In this document: one piece after another, positions 6,816 through 17,432 of the stretch
Layout: every line of letters begins with the position of its first letter
How positions within the stretch are numbered: position 1 is the first letter of the stretch
NCBI GenBank assembly: GCA_913058255.1
Contig: CAJXQU010000006.1
Coordinates: forward strand, 62,001-126,000
Reading direction: 5' to 3'
Origin: an uncultured Pseudomonadota bacterium
GTDB lineage: Bacteria > Pseudomonadota > Gammaproteobacteria > CAJXQU01
DNA: 64,000 nucleotides
Translations under genes and position numbers: made by a program
Notes under the pieces: model-generated
Told to the model about the DNA's origin: nothing
The model's database searches: none
The model's input: only the letters and a program-made list of their open reading frames with translations

Positions 6816-6851
6816 TTATTTAGTGATCATTATCAAAAGGAAATGATAATA

Positions 6852-9551
6852 ATGCAGTATCAAAAGAGTCTAGGATGGACTTTAAAAATAGTTTTTTTAT
6901 CAACGTTAATTCTTACAGGTTGTAATAAAAAAACACCTGAGGAAACGATTGCATTAGCGAAAGAATTCCATGCTCAAGGTAATTCACAAGTTGCTGTTAT
7001 TGAGCTTAAAAATCTCTTGCAGGAAAAACCCCAGCAAATTTCCGCATTAATTTTATTGAATAAGATCTATACAGATAAAAAACAATACCCAGCGATTATA
7101 AAATTACTAACTAAGCCTGTTGCAACAGGCATAGACACACAGGAGATTGTTTTCTCACTCACTGATGCTTTGATTCAACAAGCTAAGTTTGCAGATGCGT
7201 TAGCTATTACTCAGTCTTACCCTGATCATTTTCAATTAGGCCAAGGGCTGGCGCTTAAAGGTCATATCTTTGCTGGACTTAACCAAGTCGTTAAAGCGAT
7301 TCAGTTTTATGAGCAAGCATTAGTTTTAAATAATGATTTAATTTCAGCACATTTAGGCTTAGCGCAAGAATATATCATATCAACAGAGGAACATAAGGTT
7401 CAGCAAGCGTCCGTATTAAAACGTTCAAGTAATAATTGGGTAATTAAAACTACACCTGTCGATAAAATAGGGAATGAACCTACAGAAAAAGCATTAGAGC
7501 ATCTCAGGAAGGTTCTCAGCCTTGAGGAAAATAATGTCGTGGCGAATTATCTGTTAGCAACAATTTATTATTTGAGTAAAGATATCTCGGAAGCACAGAA
7601 GTCTATTAACAAGGTGCTCGAAGTTGATCCTGAACATAAAGAGAGCTTATTGTTGATGGGTAAACTGCACCTTGAATTGGCACATATTGATAAAAGTGAA
7701 AAATACCTAAAAGAGTATATCAAACTAGCTCCAAAAGATTTAAAGGCTAGAATGTATTTGTCTTCAATTATGCTTCGAAAAAAGCAACCGGACCTTGCTT
7801 TGGAACTAGTCGTTGATTATAAGGAAGAAGGTTCCACTGATGCGGAATATTTACTTATTCTGGGTAATATTTACTTGGCTAAAAGAAACAACGATCTCGC
7901 GATAGATTATTTTGCTAAAGCGCATGATATTTTTCCGCAATCAGCCTTAGTGAAAATGTATTTTGCCATGGGGTATCTAGCACGTTCAGATCAGTTGAAA
8001 GGGGATCATGCTTCGGCAATTCATCTATTAGAAGAAGTCCTGGCTATTGAGCCTGACAACAGTCAGGCAGGCATTTCATTGATCACAACATTATTACAAA
8101 TAGAAGATTATTCAACAGCAATTTTAATAGCTGAAGCGATGATAGTTCGCTCACCGAAATCACCAATGCCTTGGTATTTATCAGGTATCGCATATCAATC
8201 ATTAAATAAAATAGATAAAGCTATTCAAGCATTTAAAAAGACACTTGTACTAAACCATTCTTTTGTGCCAGGAACAATAAGATTAGCAAAAATATATCAA
8301 GCACAAGGCGATCTTTCATTAGCTAAAAAACAATACGAAACGGGGCTTTATGACTCGCCATACAATGCTCAGATAATGACTGAAATGGCTCTTCTTGAAC
8401 AAAAAGCTGGAAATAAAATTAAAGCTATTGAGTTGCTAGAACTTGCTAGGGATCGAAATAGGGAGGCACTCTCACCTCGGTTATTATTAGGTACTTATTA
8501 TTTACGCAAAGGACAAGTCAGTGTTGCAAAGCAGCTGATGGCTGAGTTAGAAAAACTAGCTCCATCTAGGCCTGACGTGCAAATGTACTTTGGACAGGTT
8601 CAATTAGCAACAGGGCGGGTATCCGAAGCTGTTACTACATTCTCAGGATTGATCCAACTTCAACCAAGCTCTCCAGACATTCTGGCTAAATACGGGAGTG
8701 CTTTAAGATTGAGTGGCCAGCTTGCCGAAGGTAGAAAGGCTTTCGAATCCGCTATAGGTTTGTCTGATAGTCCATCTTCTGAGGTTCTTATTGAGCTTGC
8801 TAAGCTTGAATTGACTGCAAATGATTTTCAAAAAACACGCGATCTTATCGTAAAAATAAGATCTAATTTTGGAGAACTGGCGAGCGGCCAATTACTGGAA
8901 GGTGATCTCGCCATGCGGTTAAAAAATCCAAGCGAGGCAGTTAATTTTTATGAGAGAGCAAATGAGTTAAATCATGCGACAAGCACGATCTTAAAACTCT
9001 ACGAAGCTTATTCACAAGCGGGCATGAGTGATAAAGCATCTTTGTTTTTAAAGCGATCAGCTAAGGATAACCCTAATGATTTACGCTTAAGTATGACGCT
9101 CGCTAATATTAAACATCAACAAGGTGACTCAGAGGCTGCTATTGAAATCTATCAAGGTCTTTTAGAACAATATCCGAAAAATGCATTAATATTAAATAAT
9201 CTTGCATGGGTTTATGATTTAACGAATTCGAAAAAAGCACTTTTTTTTGCTGAAAAGGCCTATCTGTCGACTCCAGATTTACCACAGATTATCGATTCAT
9301 ATGGTTGGTTTTGCATACACGAAGGACGCCTTAAAGAAGGAGTTAGTCTGCTCAAAACTGCAGTGCAAAAATCACCGGCAGATCCTGAGTTTCGCTATCA
9401 CTTAGCAGAGGCTTTGTTTAAATCGGGTAAAAAAGGCTTGGCAAGAGAGTCGTTAGAAATAGCTTTGGCTAGCCAACAAAATTTTAATGGTAGAAATGAA
9501 GCTGAAGACTTGTTGTTGAAACTTAGTCGCTCTGAAGTGGTAACGAATTAG
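6852..9551 (+). CDS. prsT: PEP-CTERM system TPR-repeat lipoprotein PrsT
   Basis: About 900 residues. The signal peptide ends in a lipobox, LILTGC, so the protein is probably lipid-anchored. The rest is a long array of tetratricopeptide repeats of 34 residues (for example LISAHLGLAQEYI, NVVANYLLATIYYLS, NALILNNLAWVYDL). This length and layout match PrsT proteins found with XrtA, thought to assist polysaccharide export or PEP-CTERM handling. An ATG at 6843 is also in frame, but AGGA at 6838-6841 is only 1-2 bases from it and 10 from the ATG at 6852, so the latter is chosen. A 907-residue paralogue lies at 30197-32920. Confidence 0.88.
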   Translation: MQYQKSLGWTLKIVFLSTLILTGCNKKTPEETIALAKEFHAQGNSQVAVIELKNLLQEKPQQISALILLNKIYTDKKQYPAIIKLLTKPVATGIDTQEIVFSLTDALIQQAKFADALAITQSYPDHFQLGQGLALKGHIFAGLNQVVKAIQFYEQALVLNNDLISAHLGLAQEYIISTEEHKVQQASVLKRSSNNWVIKTTPVDKIGNEPTEKALEHLRKVLSLEENNVVANYLLATIYYLSKDISEAQKSINKVLEVDPEHKESLLLMGKLHLELAHIDKSEKYLKEYIKLAPKDLKARMYLSSIMLRKKQPDLALELVVDYKEEGSTDAEYLLILGNIYLAKRNNDLAIDYFAKAHDIFPQSALVKMYFAMGYLARSDQLKGDHASAIHLLEEVLAIEPDNSQAGISLITTLLQIEDYSTAILIAEAMIVRSPKSPMPWYLSGIAYQSLNKIDKAIQAFKKTLVLNHSFVPGTIRLAKIYQAQGDLSLAKKQYETGLYDSPYNAQIMTEMALLEQKAGNKIKAIELLELARDRNREALSPRLLLGTYYLRKGQVSVAKQLMAELEKLAPSRPDVQMYFGQVQLATGRVSEAVTTFSGLIQLQPSSPDILAKYGSALRLSGQLAEGRKAFESAIGLSDSPSSEVLIELAKLELTANDFQKTRDLIVKIRSNFGELASGQLLEGDLAMRLKNPSEAVNFYERANELNHATSTILKLYEAYSQAGMSDKASLFLKRSAKDNPNDLRLSMTLANIKHQQGDSEAAIEIYQGLLEQYPKNALILNNLAWVYDLTNSKKALFFAEKAYLSTPDLPQIIDSYGWFCIHEGRLKEGVSLLKTAVQKSPADPEFRYHLAEALFKSGKKGLARESLEIALASQQNFNGRNEAEDLLLKLSRSEVVTN

Positions 9552-9620: not shown

Positions 9621-10718
9621 TTATAATAGTTTTTGAGCTGCTTTTTTTAGGCCTAATTGAACTTTACTTTGTATCCCTAAAGGGATTAGTACAGCTTGAT
9701 CAGTCGCGTATGACTCAGTCCATTTGAATTTATAATCTTCTTCACCGCGTAAGAAATCAAAGATAATATTTTTTTCTAATATAGCCTGTTGAATGGCGTG
9801 AGCCATTATTTGTGTGCCGGGGCTATAACGTTGCCAGAACTGATCAAAACCAGATTGGTAAAACGAGACTGTTCCGTTGTACTGGAAGCAGTGCAGGGCG
9901 GCTATGCTCGTCTTGCCTACATTTAGAGTGTAACTACGGAGAAAACCTGCCTCGAGAAAAATTGTGGCAAGCTTCGTATGAAACTCTATCATTTTTTGAT
10001 TTGTAAATAGGCCTTCGTTATCCTTTCTTTGCTGAGAGGCTGTATGAAGCTCAACAAGTATCGTAATAAACTCTTCTACTTCCTCTTTTTCAGTTATTTT
10101 TTTAAAATTGATCATACTAGGATAATCTTTTTCTAATCGCCTCTCAAAGCGACCAAGGTTATACCGCATACTTTTTCCATAAGATTGTTTTAAAGTAGCC
10201 CAATCATCTGGTAGCGTTAAATAAGGACAAATATTCTTACTAATTTGCATCTGACCATTTGTCTGCTCAAGTAATTGTAACAGAGTGTTTGAACCTGACA
10301 TCATTCCATCTAATGATATTTTTTGCCAATGAGTTCGAGAGGACCAAATCTTATCTGTAAACAAATGGGAAATACTCATTTCAAAATCTTTGTGGATAAT
10401 GAAATCAAGATGATCGGGTGCAGCATCTCCATTACCGATAAAGGATAGGGTTTTCTCTTGTAGGCCTAAATTGAGTGTATCTTTTATGATAAGAGGTGCG
10501 ATACCTAGCAGTTGATTCGTATCTTCTTGTCGACAAATTATCATCCAGAGCGCATTGTTTTCGTGAAAACAATCCCACCAGGTAGAAACCCACTCCCAAG
10601 TCATGAATATAGAGTCACATGAAGAATATTCTAATAGTTCATTCCATTCATTTTTGAGTTCGAGTAATTGCTCATGAGTTTCAAGGATATTAATTGAAGT
10701 TTTTGTTGTATTGGTCAC
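9621..10718 (-). CDS. GNAT-fold FemAB/CelD-like acyltransferase, exosortase-linked
   Basis: 365 residues resembling the CelD/BcsL acetyltransferase-6 family related to FemAB. Landmarks are SIFMTWEWVSTWWDCF near residue 36-51, LLGIAPLIIKD, and in the C-terminal GNAT half SIAALHCFQYNGTVSFYQSGFD and DFLRGEEDYKFKWT. Members are cytosolic and often sit in exosortase/EPS loci, where they are suspected of acylating a sugar or lipid precursor; the substrate is not known. It converges with the PrsT gene, 69 bases away. No signal peptide is visible. Confidence 0.8.
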   Translation of the reverse strand: MTNTTKTSINILETHEQLLELKNEWNELLEYSSCDSIFMTWEWVSTWWDCFHENNALWMIICRQEDTNQLLGIAPLIIKDTLNLGLQEKTLSFIGNGDAAPDHLDFIIHKDFEMSISHLFTDKIWSSRTHWQKISLDGMMSGSNTLLQLLEQTNGQMQISKNICPYLTLPDDWATLKQSYGKSMRYNLGRFERRLEKDYPSMINFKKITEKEEVEEFITILVELHTASQQRKDNEGLFTNQKMIEFHTKLATIFLEAGFLRSYTLNVGKTSIAALHCFQYNGTVSFYQSGFDQFWQRYSPGTQIMAHAIQQAILEKNIIFDFLRGEEDYKFKWTESYATDQAVLIPLGIQSKVQLGLKKAAQKLL

Positions 10719-10921
10719 TATGGGTTCAGTTTTTTCGACGTGATGATTGAAAGGTGAAAGAAGCTCTGCTGTGGTGACATAAAAGGCTCACAAAATTAAA
10801 TGACAAAAGTAGATTTAATTCTTATATCTACCATATAGTTTATCGGCATTTATATCGATATCTTAAAATAAGAAGAGTACGCAGAAAACTATATTGACTT
10901 CTGTTGCTCAGGAAATAGATT

Positions 10922-11809
10922 TTAGGTTATGTTCTTTTTAAGAATACTTATTGCTTGATCAACCCAACTTTCTCTACGAATTCGTCCAGGAAACTTAATA
11001 ACCATTTTTTCGAGTCTATCAATTTCTTTTTCAGTTAACTCAGCTATTTGGTTGAAGGAGATTATTCCTTGAGAGTGTAGTTTTTTAGCGATGGCAGGGC
11101 CGATACCTGAGATTTGCTCAAGATTATCTTTTGCCATGTTTTCTATCAATGCTTTCTTCGTTTCTTTAGTTGTTTCTTTCTTTGCAGTCGATTTTACTTT
11201 TGATTTGGTGTTTAAGTTGTTTACATCTAAAAAATCAAACCACTGTGACCAAAGCTCGAACTGTAACTCAATGCAGCCATTCATGGCTTCTTGAATTTTT
11301 TGCGCAGCATTGAAGAACTCTTCCGTGGAGAGCTCATTAACCTTAACGTCCTTTGTCCATTGGTCTAACCAATCAGTTTGTGATGTTAATGAATTTTCTA
11401 CGGTCGATTTCCAAAGAACTAAGTTATTAACAAGACGTTGAGAATCTTCGAATGAATCTGTTGATTCTTCTATCATTTTAAACCAATAAGTCCATAGCTC
11501 CGTTTGGTTTTCTGACCAGCTACTCATAGATTCTTGTATATGGTTTATCATATCTACTTTGTCTGTAGGTGATAGGGGGACACCACTTTGCATTTGACCA
11601 AGCCAATGATCAAGCCAGTGTGATTGTAAATCCATTGATTGTTTAACGGCCGACTTTCCCCAAGTCATAAAAGGGGATAAATGGAGGAATTCCCAAGGGT
11701 TCTTTTTTTTAGTATTGAGTTCGATGTTAGGTAAGTTCATAGGCAGTTTATTAATAAACTGTCGCTGCATTTCTTGCCATTCCTCAAACATTGCGCACCA
11801 ATAATTCAT
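10922..11809 (-). CDS. Trp-rich repeat protein with C-terminal helix-hairpin-helix
   Basis: 295 residues, not confidently assigned. Residues about 45-195 are helical and contain two tandem copies of a unit of about 82 residues. Each unit has two W-x3-W helices: QSHWLDHWL (62-70) pairs with QTDWLDQW (144-151), and QTELWTYWF (102-110) pairs with QFELWSQWF (183-191). A Lys/Thr-rich linker (about 200-222) leads to a helix-hairpin-helix domain, LEQISGIGPAIAKKLHSQGI, ending GRIRRESWVDQA, as in the Rad51/DUF4332-like HhH proteins. The repeat part is reminiscent of phasins, but I cannot assert that. It follows the DUF934 gene by about 68 bases on the same strand. Confidence 0.6.
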   Translation of the reverse strand: MNYWCAMFEEWQEMQRQFINKLPMNLPNIELNTKKKNPWEFLHLSPFMTWGKSAVKQSMDLQSHWLDHWLGQMQSGVPLSPTDKVDMINHIQESMSSWSENQTELWTYWFKMIEESTDSFEDSQRLVNNLVLWKSTVENSLTSQTDWLDQWTKDVKVNELSTEEFFNAAQKIQEAMNGCIELQFELWSQWFDFLDVNNLNTKSKVKSTAKKETTKETKKALIENMAKDNLEQISGIGPAIAKKLHSQGIISFNQIAELTEKEIDRLEKMVIKFPGRIRRESWVDQAISILKKNIT

Positions 11810-11877
11810 AGAGACTCCCCCAAAGAAACATTGTCCTCAATAACTATAGCACAGCAAGTTTGTGCCGCTAGGCTAGA

Positions 11878-12351
11878 TTAACGTAATTCAGAAATAATTT
11901 TTTGTTGGTCTTCAGAAGATTGATAAGGAGTACTTAGTTCGGTAAATGCCTTTAATGCATCCTCTGCATTACGGTGCTCTGTGAGTTTAATTAGGTTTAT
12001 CCCACAACGTTCCATTTGGGCAACTTGATCTCTGAGAATATCACCAACGGCAAGTAAATCACCTTGGTAGTTATAGGCGCCCCTTAATAGACTGGCATGA
12101 GAGAAGCAACGACCATCAACATAAACAGGAAACTCTAAAGCAATGATATCCAGCTGATCTAGATCATCAGTAATGGCTTCAACGGCTGTGTCGCCGTTAA
12201 GTAAGACACCCGTTTTTCCAGAACGCGAGCGAAGAACTTCTTTGTTTTCAGCATATACGTGATAAGGAAAAATCACGTTACCTTCTGTGTTAGCTTGCTC
12301 GCTTATTTCCCAGTCAATGTTGTCAATCTTATGGTCTTTTATTACTTTCAT
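11878..12351 (-). CDS. DUF934 protein, sulfite reductase partner
   Basis: A 157-residue cytosolic protein of the DUF934 family, whose genes lie directly downstream of CysI-type sulfite reductases in many proteobacteria. Landmarks are LLNGDTAVEAI, IALEFPVYVDGRCFSHASLLR, YQGDLLAVGDILRDQV and MERCGINLI. It is presumed to help sulfite reduction, perhaps in siroheme or electron supply; the biochemical role is not established. The gap to the reductase stop is 42 bases on the same strand, so an operon is likely. Confidence 0.85.
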   Translation of the reverse strand: MKVIKDHKIDNIDWEISEQANTEGNVIFPYHVYAENKEVLRSRSGKTGVLLNGDTAVEAITDDLDQLDIIALEFPVYVDGRCFSHASLLRGAYNYQGDLLAVGDILRDQVAQMERCGINLIKLTEHRNAEDALKAFTELSTPYQSSEDQQKIISELR

Positions 12352-12393
12352 TGTGCTCTCTCTTCTTGTCTTACCTTTAACGCATGGGCTTGA

Positions 12394-14046
12394 TTAGGCA
12401 TAAACGCGTTCTTTGAACGGTTCAACACCAATTCTAAGGCAGGTTTGTAGGAAGGTTTCATCTTCATTGTGACGATTGCTCAGGTAAACTTCTAGAATTT
12501 TTTCGATAGTGTCAGCAACTTTTTCTTTTGCGATTGCTGGTCCTAAACGATCACCCAACCTAGAGTCTGTTTCTGCTGAGCCACCTAAAGTAAACTGATA
12601 GAATTCAACGCCTTTTTTATCAACCCCTAAAATACCAATGTGGCCAACGTGGTGATGTCCACAGGCATTCATACAACCAGACATTTTAACCTTAACTGGT
12701 CCAAGGTCATGGAGGTAGTCTAGGTCATCAAACTTATCGTTGATTTGTTTTGCAATAGAAATAGAACTAGCATTTGCGAGCGAGCAGAAATCTAAGCCTG
12801 GGCAGCAAATCATATCGTTCAATGTACCTATGTTAGCCGTCGCTAAAAGGTGTTCTTGTAGCGCTTGCCACAATGCGTAGAGATCGGATTGTTTAACATC
12901 GGTTAGCACCATGTTTTGATCATGTGTTGTGCGTAACTCGCCAAAACTGTACTGATCAGATAGATCGGCAACAGCATCCATTTGTGTACTGGTGATATCA
13001 CCCGGTGCTACGCCTGGCGCTTTCAGTGAGATATAAACCGCACGATAACCCTCTATCTTATGAGCGTAGGTGTTTTGTTTGTACCAACGACTGAAAGCTT
13101 TATCGGCTTCAAGCTTTTCGGCCAAGCTAGTGTCTTCAGCAGCATTTTTTTCATAATCAGGCTCTGTGAAAAAGGCTGAAACGCGATCAAATTCTTTCTG
13201 ATCAATTTGTAAAACTGAGCTCTTAATTCGCTCCCACTCTTTTTCAACTTTTTCACGGAAGACGTCAATACCTTGCGCTTTTACTAACACCTTAATTCGT
13301 GCACGGTGAATATTATCTCGACGACCTTCAAGGTTGTAGATCCGTAAGATTGCTTCCATATAAGAGAGCAGGTGCTTTTTCTCAATAAATTCTTTTATGA
13401 CAACACCAACGATAGGCATACGGCCTAAACCACCACCGACGAGAATTTTAAAGCCGACCTCACCTTTATCATTTTTGATTAGGTAGACACCAATATCATG
13501 AAATTGAACCGCAGCACGATCATTTTCGGCACCTGAAAAGGCAATTTTAAATTTACGAGGTAGCCAGTTGAACTCAGGATGAAAGGTCGACCATTGACGG
13601 ACTATTTCACAATAAGGTCTTGGATCTTCGATTTCATCTTGGGCGACGCCAGCAAGGTGATCGGTTGTTGTGTTACGAATACAGTTACCACTCGTTTGGA
13701 TCGCATGCATCTGAACCGTTGCTAGATCGGCAAGAATATCAGGTACACGCTCTAGTTCCGGCCAGTTATACTGGATATTCTGGCGGGTACTAATGTGACC
13801 ATAATCCTTATCGTATTCACGAGCGATATAGGCCAACATGCGTAGCTGTTTTGAGGCCAATGTTCCATAAGGAATAGCAACTCTGAGCATGGGAGCATGT
13901 GTTTGAATATACAAACCATTTCTCAGGCGTAAGTGGCGAAATTCTTCGTCCTCAAGCTCTCCTGCTAAGAAACGTTTAGTTTGCTCTCGATACTGTTCGA
14001 CGCGTTCATCGACAGCTTTCTGGTCATATTGGTCGTATTGATACAT
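12394..14046 (-). CDS. cysI: sulfite reductase hemoprotein (nitrite/sulfite reductase family)
   Basis: A 550-residue siroheme/4Fe-4S enzyme that reduces sulfite to sulfide in assimilation. The cluster ligands follow the pattern C-x5-C ... C-x3-C: C415 and C421 in CCPGLDFC, C458 and C462 in SGCMNACGHHH. Siroheme/substrate-binding Arg/Lys lie in the N-terminal half (RVAIPYGTLASKQLRMLA; HISTRQNIQYNW). The length and adjacent DUF934 gene match the Pseudomonas-type CysI (about 550 residues) rather than the NADPH-linked E. coli enzyme. A nitrite reductase role cannot be excluded from sequence alone, but no nitrate gene is nearby. Confidence 0.88.
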   Translation of the reverse strand: MYQYDQYDQKAVDERVEQYREQTKRFLAGELEDEEFRHLRLRNGLYIQTHAPMLRVAIPYGTLASKQLRMLAYIAREYDKDYGHISTRQNIQYNWPELERVPDILADLATVQMHAIQTSGNCIRNTTTDHLAGVAQDEIEDPRPYCEIVRQWSTFHPEFNWLPRKFKIAFSGAENDRAAVQFHDIGVYLIKNDKGEVGFKILVGGGLGRMPIVGVVIKEFIEKKHLLSYMEAILRIYNLEGRRDNIHRARIKVLVKAQGIDVFREKVEKEWERIKSSVLQIDQKEFDRVSAFFTEPDYEKNAAEDTSLAEKLEADKAFSRWYKQNTYAHKIEGYRAVYISLKAPGVAPGDITSTQMDAVADLSDQYSFGELRTTHDQNMVLTDVKQSDLYALWQALQEHLLATANIGTLNDMICCPGLDFCSLANASSISIAKQINDKFDDLDYLHDLGPVKVKMSGCMNACGHHHVGHIGILGVDKKGVEFYQFTLGGSAETDSRLGDRLGPAIAKEKVADTIEKILEVYLSNRHNEDETFLQTCLRIGVEPFKERVYA

Positions 14047-14140
14047 TTGAACTCTGATATTAGCTAATAATGGGCGTGAAGATACCAGTTATTGCTTAGG
14101 CTTAAAAGGACTATGTTCTGCTATGAATATAACAATAAAG

Positions 14141-14184
14141 CTGGGCAGAGAACTCTATTCCATAATGAAAGAGTCTCTACCCAG
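14141..14184 (-). terminator. hairpin downstream of the pilin/pilY1 operon
   Basis: CTGGGCAGAGA...TCTCTACCCAG forms an 11-bp stem with one mismatch, extended inward by CTCT/AGAG with one bulge, loop about 13 bases. It lies 20 bases beyond the stop of the last pilY1. On the minus strand it is followed by CTTTATTGTTAT, T-rich but not a clean U-run, so it may be a moderate terminator or mRNA-stabilising hairpin. Confidence 0.6.
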
Positions 14185-14204
14185 AGTCACCAGTTACTTC
14201 AAAC

Positions 14205-17200
14205 TTACTTTATTTTTTTCCAATTAAGAAATTTAATTTTGTCAAAATTTTCATCTTCAGCAACTTTACCAACAATTAATTTTGTTGGTTTTGCCTTATC
14301 ACCAGCAACATATGTGGGGTGGTATTGAATGACTTCAGTCGGGATACCTTTGCCAGATAAGCTTTTGGAGCGGTTGCCGGCTGTGAGGTTCTCAGGAGGA
14401 GTGTCGTCATCGTAGAAGTCTTTAACAGGCGTGGCATTATCAAGGTTTACAAGATAAAATCGGCCAGAGCCGCCACCGCCACCGCAAGTTTTACTCGTTG
14501 CGCCTTCATTTGCAGGTGTGAAGGTTGTGAAGGTTAGTTTCCCATCAAAGATTAATAAGGGAGTAAGGCTTTTCTCGCCCTTATCTTGGAGTTTTAATAC
14601 CCAACCTTGTTTGTTGGTAAGATTCGTTTCTTCACCCTCTTTTTCTGATGGGCTACCTTCACCAATTTTATTGTCTGTTATATCCAACAAATGGTCATTG
14701 ACAACAGTTGACCAGTTTGCTTTAGGAGCGCCTGTCTCATAATTTGTATCACGAATCATATAGATTTTATCGTCTACGGTTGTAGAGTTTGGGTGTGCTC
14801 GAAAACCAGACCCTGTAGAAACAGCAAAGTAGAAGCCGGTCGAACCTTTAACCTTAGCGATCTCAGGTGGTGAGAAGAATCGTCTCAATTGCGACTCATC
14901 AACATCAGAAGATAGATCGGCTATACGATAGCCTGATATATTTTTATCATTATTGTTGTCTACTAAATCAACTCTCCAAATTTGCCCGCCCATATCTGAA
15001 AAATACAGCCTATCTGTTAGCCTGTCATCATTAGTGTCGATGGTTCTGATATCGCTCGGGATGCTATAACTCATATTGTCCCCTGTGTCGATCTCGCTAT
15101 TTCCTTTTGTAGCAGTCCAAAGCATTTGGCCCGTTTTAGCATCAGCGATATAGATCGCATTACCAATATCATCAGGGGTACGAACGACATAGTCATCTTG
15201 GTCTTCATCATAGCCACCACCAAAAATTAGAGCTGTTTTTATACTTCCTCCCGTCCACTTTATATTTACCGGAGTAAGTTTTGACCATGTTTGTCCAAGT
15301 TTCGCGTAGTCGCCGATCCCGCCTTCTATACGCCACTGAAGGTAAGGTGAGGAAAGGTTTGAAACATCGAGTGCATAGTAATTTCTACCACCACGGCGCA
15401 TACCAAAGTATATGTAGGCCTTTTCTGAATTATTAACGATACGATCATTGTTTGTATCATCATGAAAATAAGATAGAACTCCATCTAGGCCATAGAGGTG
15501 ACCTGCAGAGTTTAGGTTTGCTTTATGATCTTTAAGCTTAGGTAACAAGGCTTGAGGGATAAAGGCAAATATTTCAGAGCCGCCACTGTAATCTTTGAAG
15601 GCTACTGGTTTTGTTGTATCAAAGGCATGTAAAAGGCCTTGGTTAGTCATGGAAAACAGTACGTTCTTTTGAACACCGGGAGAATCTTCATAAATAAGTG
15701 AAATCGGCTTAGCATGTAAAGGATCACCCATACCCACATCATTTTGAAGCCAGTTTATAAGATCTTCTTTTTCAGCATCATCGACAACGTTGAGTAGTTG
15801 TGGCGTAATCGTAGTCTCATTAATGGTAATCTCAGTCAGTGCTGACGCATTAGGTGCTGCCGTATCGGTATAAGTATAGATAGTTCGTGCATTGTCGTGC
15901 TCTATCTCTGCCGAGGCTCCCCCAAGTTCAACAAAGTTACCATCTGGGCCAGATGACCAAAAGCTTCTAGCTAGGTCGCTGAACTTATCAACATTGTCAT
16001 CATCGATAGTAACGGCAGGATTTCCATCAACATCAAGTAAACCCGTTGAATCAATAAAATACCCTTTTAAATTACCCTTCCATGAACGCGTGTTACCTGG
16101 TTTGAACATATTCAGGAATACTCGGTTATCTGAAGAAAGAGTGCTTGCTTTAATATTGGTTACTAGGCTGGAAAAACTTTCATTTTCACCCGTGATGGAA
16201 TCCAATATCTGTTTGAATGCATCTTCTAAGTCTGATGCATCTGAAGCAGAGTAGAAAACACCTTTGCCTTTATCCGCTAGGGTCTCAAGATAGTCTTTAC
16301 CTTGCCCACTTACATTAAAACCTATGGTGTAAGTAAAGACCTTACTTCCAGTGACATTATTGATTTGATCATTATTAGCTAGATACTCGACTAACTCTGG
16401 TCCGCAAAGGCCATGTTCTAGCCCCGGAATTTCTGCACATTGACTTTTAATAATGTCATTTTCTATATCCCACTTATGATAAGAATTTGTTGGTTCTCCG
16501 TCAGAAAGTAGAACGATATAACTTGCTTGACAGCTATCTTCGATAGGACTGTTATAGGTTGCACCTAGCCATGCTTCTTGCCAATATTCATGGCTACAAA
16601 CTGTACTTGTAACACTTTGATAATTATGACAGCTACATGTTTCATTTTCAGTACCTGGGTTTTCACATATCCAATCTGTACATTGTGATGAGGTAATATC
16701 CTTACAATTATTAACTTGAAGTCTGTCAGGGTATCGAGTGAACCCTGGCTTACAAGTTGTGTAAGGACCAGAGTCGTAAGTACAGGTTCCCCACCTTTTT
16801 TCACCTTCTTGAGTCCATGCTTCAGGCCCTGGAGTTGGGGTGTAGGTCAGTGCATGAGGGCTATCATACTCATCGTAATAACCATTATTCCACTCAGGTG
16901 GTTTGTAACCACTCCAACCTGAAACTTCATCACCTCGGTAATACTTGGCCGTTTCGTAAAGAGCACCAACGATGTTAGTTTTATAACTTGGATCTATGTA
17001 GATCTGCTCTAATTGTTTAGGGATTTGGTTGTAGACATAAAAAGTATCCTGAGGAACAGCAAGATCTAAATCATGTAGGTCCGCTGAAATACTGGTTGCT
17101 GGATAATTGATACCATTAGACCATGTGTTGAACCAGGTGAAGCCAACTCTAAGGTTTTCATTACCTTTATTCTCTTCTAATACATTTGTTAAGGCTTCTA

Positions 17201-17432
17201 GTAGAATTTCTTTTCGACTTTCACCACTTCCAGGAGAAGTCTGAGTACCGTCAGGAGTGTTAAGCATACTACCTGACAGGTCAAAGATGAACATGACATT
17301 GACCGGAGGGCTGCTGGAATTTGCTGCACCGTATATTTCAATATCATCGGCATGCACGGGGTTTATCGTGAAAGCTAAAGATAAGCTCAACGTAGCCAAA
17401 GCCATTTTTATTACAAGTAAAAATTTATTCAT
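14205..17432 (-). CDS. pilY1: PilY1-type pilus tip adhesin (copy with Cys-rich insert)
   Basis: 1075 residues. A signal peptide (residues 1-28, ending NPVHA) precedes a von Willebrand A domain with the MIDAS motif DLSGS (D51, S53, S55) and LLSDGEPT. Residues 217-279 hold a compact insert with eight Cys that the paralogue at 18598 lacks. The C-terminal half (about 560-1050) is the PilY1 beta-propeller: DPLHAKPISLIY, LLHAFDTTKP, FAFIPQALLPKL, a Ca-loop-like DTNNDRIVNNSE, and FGMRRGGRNYYALDVS. Predicted role: calcium-responsive tip protein promoting extension and adhesion. It follows pilX by 54 bases. Confidence 0.92.
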   Translation of the reverse strand: MNKFLLVIKMALATLSLSLAFTINPVHADDIEIYGAANSSSPPVNVMFIFDLSGSMLNTPDGTQTSPGSGESRKEILLEALTNVLEENKGNENLRVGFTWFNTWSNGINYPATSISADLHDLDLAVPQDTFYVYNQIPKQLEQIYIDPSYKTNIVGALYETAKYYRGDEVSGWSGYKPPEWNNGYYDEYDSPHALTYTPTPGPEAWTQEGEKRWGTCTYDSGPYTTCKPGFTRYPDRLQVNNCKDITSSQCTDWICENPGTENETCSCHNYQSVTSTVCSHEYWQEAWLGATYNSPIEDSCQASYIVLLSDGEPTNSYHKWDIENDIIKSQCAEIPGLEHGLCGPELVEYLANNDQINNVTGSKVFTYTIGFNVSGQGKDYLETLADKGKGVFYSASDASDLEDAFKQILDSITGENESFSSLVTNIKASTLSSDNRVFLNMFKPGNTRSWKGNLKGYFIDSTGLLDVDGNPAVTIDDDNVDKFSDLARSFWSSGPDGNFVELGGASAEIEHDNARTIYTYTDTAAPNASALTEITINETTITPQLLNVVDDAEKEDLINWLQNDVGMGDPLHAKPISLIYEDSPGVQKNVLFSMTNQGLLHAFDTTKPVAFKDYSGGSEIFAFIPQALLPKLKDHKANLNSAGHLYGLDGVLSYFHDDTNNDRIVNNSEKAYIYFGMRRGGRNYYALDVSNLSSPYLQWRIEGGIGDYAKLGQTWSKLTPVNIKWTGGSIKTALIFGGGYDEDQDDYVVRTPDDIGNAIYIADAKTGQMLWTATKGNSEIDTGDNMSYSIPSDIRTIDTNDDRLTDRLYFSDMGGQIWRVDLVDNNNDKNISGYRIADLSSDVDESQLRRFFSPPEIAKVKGSTGFYFAVSTGSGFRAHPNSTTVDDKIYMIRDTNYETGAPKANWSTVVNDHLLDITDNKIGEGSPSEKEGEETNLTNKQGWVLKLQDKGEKSLTPLLIFDGKLTFTTFTPANEGATSKTCGGGGGSGRFYLVNLDNATPVKDFYDDDTPPENLTAGNRSKSLSGKGIPTEVIQYHPTYVAGDKAKPTKLIVGKVAEDENFDKIKFLNWKKIK

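Follow-up and report, generated by a model that had tools for sequence, protein, structure and literature searches.

A tryptophan-repeat protein with a helix-hairpin-helix tail, probably of the phasin type, in an uncultured gammaproteobacterium

Phasins of the families PF09361 and PF05597 are helical proteins of polyhydroxyalkanoate (PHA) granules. In Caulobacter, the phasin PhaH binds both PHB granules and DNA, a finding attributed to Salinas et al. 2023 in the review PMC13052382. According to the same review, PhaM, PhaF and PhaH hold the granule with their N-terminal end and bind DNA nonspecifically with their C-terminal end; PhaH makes this contact through a helix-hairpin-helix (HhH), whereas PhaF and PhaM bind the nucleoid via a histone-like domain. 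A C-terminal HhH is also noted for the PhaC of Haloferax in PMC12028471. Our search for literature on tryptophan-rich or HhH phasins, in which subscription journals were thinly covered, returned as relevant only papers on PhaH or citing it.

Here we analysed a gene in a window of 64,000 nucleotides (the whole stretch of DNA examined) whose product joins a tandem tryptophan repeat to a C-terminal HhH (Table 1). The product is probably a PHA granule-associated protein of the phasin type, and its HhH tail may serve as a tether, most plausibly to the nucleoid. Like PhaH of Caulobacter crescentus (NF045508), it would combine a granule-binding N-terminus with a C-terminal HhH, and the HhH modules of the two are of one type. 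Unlike PhaH, its N-terminus is a tryptophan repeat that NF045508 does not match; the model scores 47.4 bits, over residues 196-287 only, against a cut-off of 250 bits. By layout the protein is PhaH-like, but it falls outside the PhaH family, and its N-terminal half belongs to a different, unnamed tryptophan-repeat family. It further resembles PhaF and PhaM in its lysine-rich segment and in what would be binding of granule and nucleoid by one protein, as PMC13052382 describes for them, but has an HhH where these have a histone-like domain.

The first-pass annotation had proposed two tandem units of about 82 residues, each with a pair of W-x3-W helices, followed by an HhH. The tandem units hold on self-alignment: when residues 36-118 were aligned against 119-200, residues 52-114 matched 134-195 with a local BLOSUM62 score of 103. 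The highest-scoring of 2000 full shuffles reached 63, and of a further 2000 with hydrophobic positions kept in place, 80; none of either set reached 103. The helix pairs need correction, as W-x3-W was found only in the first helix of each unit (W65/W69 and W147/W151). The second helix carries W98-Q102-W106-W109 (W-x3-Q-x3-W-x2-W) in unit 1 and C179-Q183-W187-W190 in unit 2, where Cys replaces the first Trp. An extra N-terminal helix bears W11, giving the helix order A-B-A-B-A. Six columns (W11, Q102, W106, W133, Q183 and W187) are invariant in all 21 aligned relatives, and the protein has the invariant Trp and Gln of this unnamed W-x3-Q-x3-W repeat family.

Table 1. Features of the tryptophan-repeat gene, in window coordinates
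Feature	Position	Strand	Basis
Whole gene, 295 aa	10922..11809	(-)	Open reading frame with ATG start; orthologues in genus genomes G001 and G002, 56-60% identity
N-terminal helix with W11 and Q15, residues 3-21	11747..11803	(-)	Helix 3-21 in predicted model; W11 column invariant in 21 aligned relatives
Trp-repeat unit 1, residues 37-118	11456..11701	(-)	Self-alignment; model helices 44-74 and 81-117
Trp-repeat unit 2, residues 119-198	11216..11455	(-)	Self-alignment; model helices 123-154 and 162-198
Linker, lysine-rich, low-confidence, residues 199-224	11138..11215	(-)	pLDDT <50 at 199-223
HhH module, residues 225-291	10937..11137	(-)	PF14520 above cut-off; module common to NF045508 PhaH, L21, NuoE, S2, PDB 8yy9 and 9wqv

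In the predicted model (mean pLDDT 74.3, pTM 0.47) the N-terminal helix is followed by two hairpins, which make up the four long helices of the repeat part, then by the low-confidence linker and by a confident HhH (pLDDT 88-97 in blocks from residue 231). Foldseek found no match in the PDB at E 0.001 or better, and a sequence profile search of the PDB gave weak matches only, the best being a designed bundle. A second structure aligner returned designed bundles, PA28 and similar structures with Z up to 11.3, which may reflect no more than the common arrangement of helical bundles; we make no claim of a new fold. A scan of positions 10600-14300 found fewer promoter-like sites than the shuffled mean and as many terminator-like sites as the shuffled mean.

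Pfam and NCBIfam scans gave convincing matches only in the HhH part, where HhH_5 (PF14520) reached 31.7 bits at residues 229-264 against a gathering cut-off of 27, bearing out the annotated C-terminal HhH. The annotation had known of no named family with this layout. That is right for the tryptophan-repeat half, which reached no Pfam or NCBIfam family cut-off, but not for the plan of a phasin ending in an HhH, which PhaH represents. Neither Phasin_2 (PF09361) nor PHA_synth_III_E (PF09712, PhaE) was listed for the protein in the Pfam scan at E up to 5, and PF05597 gave no match there. When 15 members of the repeat family were scanned against all of Pfam, Phasin_2 (7 members, best 0.0018) and PHA_synth_III_E (5 members, best 7.1e-7) were met most often; PhaE came top in the NCBIfam scan of the same set (3/15). 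Membership of Phasin_2 was rejected: the sub-threshold matches in the 7 members were not borne out by comparison of the profiles, which gave only 0.75%.

Aligned by hhalign, the repeat profile (15 proteins) matched a PhaE profile (18 proteins) at 94.9% (E 4.7e-8), and the match was restricted to the N-terminal half of PhaE, with 95.5% for columns 1-200 and 0.58% for columns 201-400. As a further control, a coiled-coil profile gave 0.06%. Once gappy columns had been removed, the real score was 59.1, and none of 200 column shuffles exceeded 23.0. In a run that retained the gappy columns, one column shuffle among 60 scored 135, above the real 61, which we take to be an artefact of leaving those columns in. 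Because the three genus proteins alone gave only 7% against PhaE, the link runs through the wider family. On sequence grounds, the tryptophan-repeat family has an apparent tie to PhaE. At the level of profiles, the two may have the N-terminal W-x3-Q-x3-W helix motif in common, and some PhaE proteins end in an HhH, but our protein lacks the PhaE core, and the host genome has a separate, true PhaE (222.6 bits) with phaC as the next gene. The host also encodes two Phasin_2 proteins over the cut-off and, judged by its gene content, makes PHA.

A search of genome contigs with the repeat profile found 23 loci. An HhH lies downstream in 12 of them, including one (L078) where the record has masked bases and the HhH is read in a different frame; 10 have none, and one (L072) is cut by the contig end. 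The HhH-bearing loci come from the genus and mostly from MAGs named Competibacteraceae or Contendobacter. The examined stretch contains a PhaC homologue at all five non-Pseudomonadota loci (L060, L064, L066, L067 and L068) and at none of the 18 Pseudomonadota loci. The gene order is thiolase, SDR, tryptophan-repeat gene, phaE, phaC in a Nitrospirae MAG (L068) and tryptophan-repeat gene, phaE, phaC, SDR in an Anaerolineales MAG (L064), where thiolase and SDR are what we take these genes to be by recognition. In an Acidobacteria MAG and two Vicinamibacterales MAGs (L060, L066 and L067) the tryptophan-repeat gene stands directly upstream of the phaC homologue, and no PhaE match was found at these loci. 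Two same-genus paralogues (L053 and L056) likewise have a phaC homologue as neighbour; the third, L055, is too close to a contig end to be counted. Beside the class-I-like phaC of the host itself, we saw no copy of such a phaC-adjacent paralogue.

Within the class, the repeat profile matches 13 of 369 genomes. A PhaC homologue, defined as a match to the host's PhaC at E 1e-15 in the same genomes, is present in 12 of the 13, compared with 103 of 369 overall (hypergeometric 1.4e-6, kinship ignored); the 12 genomes represent 6 families, so the figure overstates the amount of independent evidence. The match in the thirteenth genome (L052 in G089) reads as an outer-membrane-efflux-like protein and is likely false, although it is still counted; a weak match in G002 (L057), also efflux-like by sequence reading, was taken as false. 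Together, the adjacency of relatives to phaE and phaC, the co-occurrence with PHA synthase and the likeness to the PhaE N-terminus support well the phasin-like granule protein that the first-pass annotation had offered as a guess. It is quite likely that the protein resides on PHA granules or is bound to the synthase.

The same observations also bear on a role as a subunit or activator of PHA synthase, PhaE-like or PhaM-like, rather than as a coat. In such a protein the tryptophan bundle would contact PhaC or PhaE and set the start of synthesis, with the HhH as a docking tail. We regard this as a real possibility, although not the favoured one. It would fit the loci where the gene occupies the usual place of phaE directly upstream of phaC without a PhaE match, the profile similarity to the PhaE N-terminus, and the N-terminal helix common to the tryptophan-repeat protein and its PhaE neighbour in L064 and L068 (BLASTP E 1e-6 and 3e-6). 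However, the rest of PhaE is missing from the family, and a full PhaE is also present in the host, in L064 and in L068.

The genomic position of the gene points elsewhere at first sight. It follows genes that we take, by recognition from sequence and with no scan, to encode sulfite reductase and DUF934, a placement that the annotation had called odd for a DNA-binding protein. The placement is real: the orthologues in both other genus genomes occupy the same place (3/3), and no PHA genes lie beside the gene in any of the three. This conserved place, and the presence of an HhH, would be expected of a nucleoid protein or a sulfur-assimilation protein unrelated to PHA, but such a protein is very improbable, given that relatives outside the genus are located elsewhere, partly at PHA genes, and that the family co-occurs with PHA synthase. 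Because those relatives sit in other places, the sulfite reductase neighbourhood is a peculiarity of this genus and hardly informative. A DNA-repair or sulfur-metabolism role was rejected as the main reading since non-genus relatives lie elsewhere and track PHA genes.

What the tail binds is a separate matter. The C-terminal module is larger than bare PF14520, and the same stretch is found in the NCBIfam models for L21, NuoE, S2 and the phasin PhaH, in PDB chains 8yy9_O and 9wqv_a, and appended to a complex I subunit and a photosynthetic reaction-centre chain. Because the module occurs on so many proteins, an HhH alone does not mean DNA. The annotation's ascription of DNA contact is plausible by the precedent of PhaH, and is tempered by the same module ending ribosomal protein L21 and a complex I subunit. 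By that analogy the tail may contact DNA and tether the granule to the nucleoid, with chances that we put a little short of even.

Several granule proteins carry the module. One PF05597 phasin (L004:1471-2142 in G069) ends with it, and the same genome also has a tryptophan-repeat protein with an HhH (L014); our protein shares the module with this phasin but matches neither phasin family. The PhaE proteins of G044 and G184 (L093 and L095; class III PHA synthase) also end with it; in many other PhaE a lysine-rich tail takes this position. A tree was built from 47 modules on only 64 columns, and many of its forks are weak; in it, the 14 modules of the tryptophan-repeat family group with that of the PF05597 phasin and one outlier row (support 91/87); the two PhaE modules were outside the set. 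The host genome encodes three more proteins ending in the same module (L025, G000:C14:25599-25829; L015, G000:C4:27946-28191; L026, G000:C12:25750-25968), which by recognition we take to be a ribosomal L21-like protein, a membrane protein and a coiled-coil membrane protein, respectively.

The wide distribution of the module, on L21, S2, NuoE, the complex I subunit and the reaction-centre chain, would suit a protein-protein docking device unrelated to DNA, through which granules would be connected with some other protein or with the membrane. The linkers of the Competibacteraceae relatives, which are mostly acidic, agree with such docking, and we consider it a credible if somewhat less probable reading. 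Against it, the linkers are lysine-rich in the genus, and acidity is lower in the 14 modules of the tryptophan-repeat family than in the other 33 that we collected (Mann-Whitney 2.6e-5, the rows being related). In PMC13052382, moreover, the HhH of PhaH is reported to mediate nonspecific DNA binding. The 60 residues preceding the HhH have a net charge of +2 in our protein and of +12 and +4 in the two orthologues. Counting against the tether are the 10 of 23 loci without an HhH, the mostly acidic Competibacteraceae linkers and the charge of the HhH itself, which ranges from +2 to -3 within the genus.

For a tethering granule protein we propose the following mechanism. The tryptophan-repeat part would fold as a four-helix bundle, its first helix motif related to the PhaE N-terminus, and would bind the granule surface, the PhaE-PhaC synthase or both. 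Through the flexible linker and the HhH the granule would be anchored to another partner, of which the nucleoid is the likeliest candidate by the proposal made for PhaH, so that granules could be spread and shared at division. More speculatively, the W-x3-Q-x3-W repeat may mark undescribed PHA synthase partners of several phyla that share an origin with the PhaE N-terminus, to which the genus and the Competibacteraceae added a nucleoid-linking HhH tail, a second, separately assembled tether of the PhaH type; we put this forward tentatively and think it rather less probable than not.

These results provide a functional handle on an unannotated tryptophan-repeat family that occurs in Competibacteraceae and, within PHA operons, in lineages ranging from Nitrospirae to Anaerolineales. 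The occurrence of HhH tails on a PF05597 phasin, PhaE, the tryptophan-repeat protein and PhaH suggests that such tails were fused to granule proteins on more than one occasion, so that tethering of granules to the nucleoid can be tested beyond Caulobacter, Cupriavidus and Pseudomonas.

Other genes near the locus were noted in passing. Window positions 6843-9551 and 9621-10718 encode a long TPR protein and an acetyltransferase-like protein, which by eye look like parts of an exosortase/PEP-CTERM-type system. A large protein that appears PilY1-like by eye is encoded at 14205-17432, and its counterpart in G001 is flanked by pilin-like genes.
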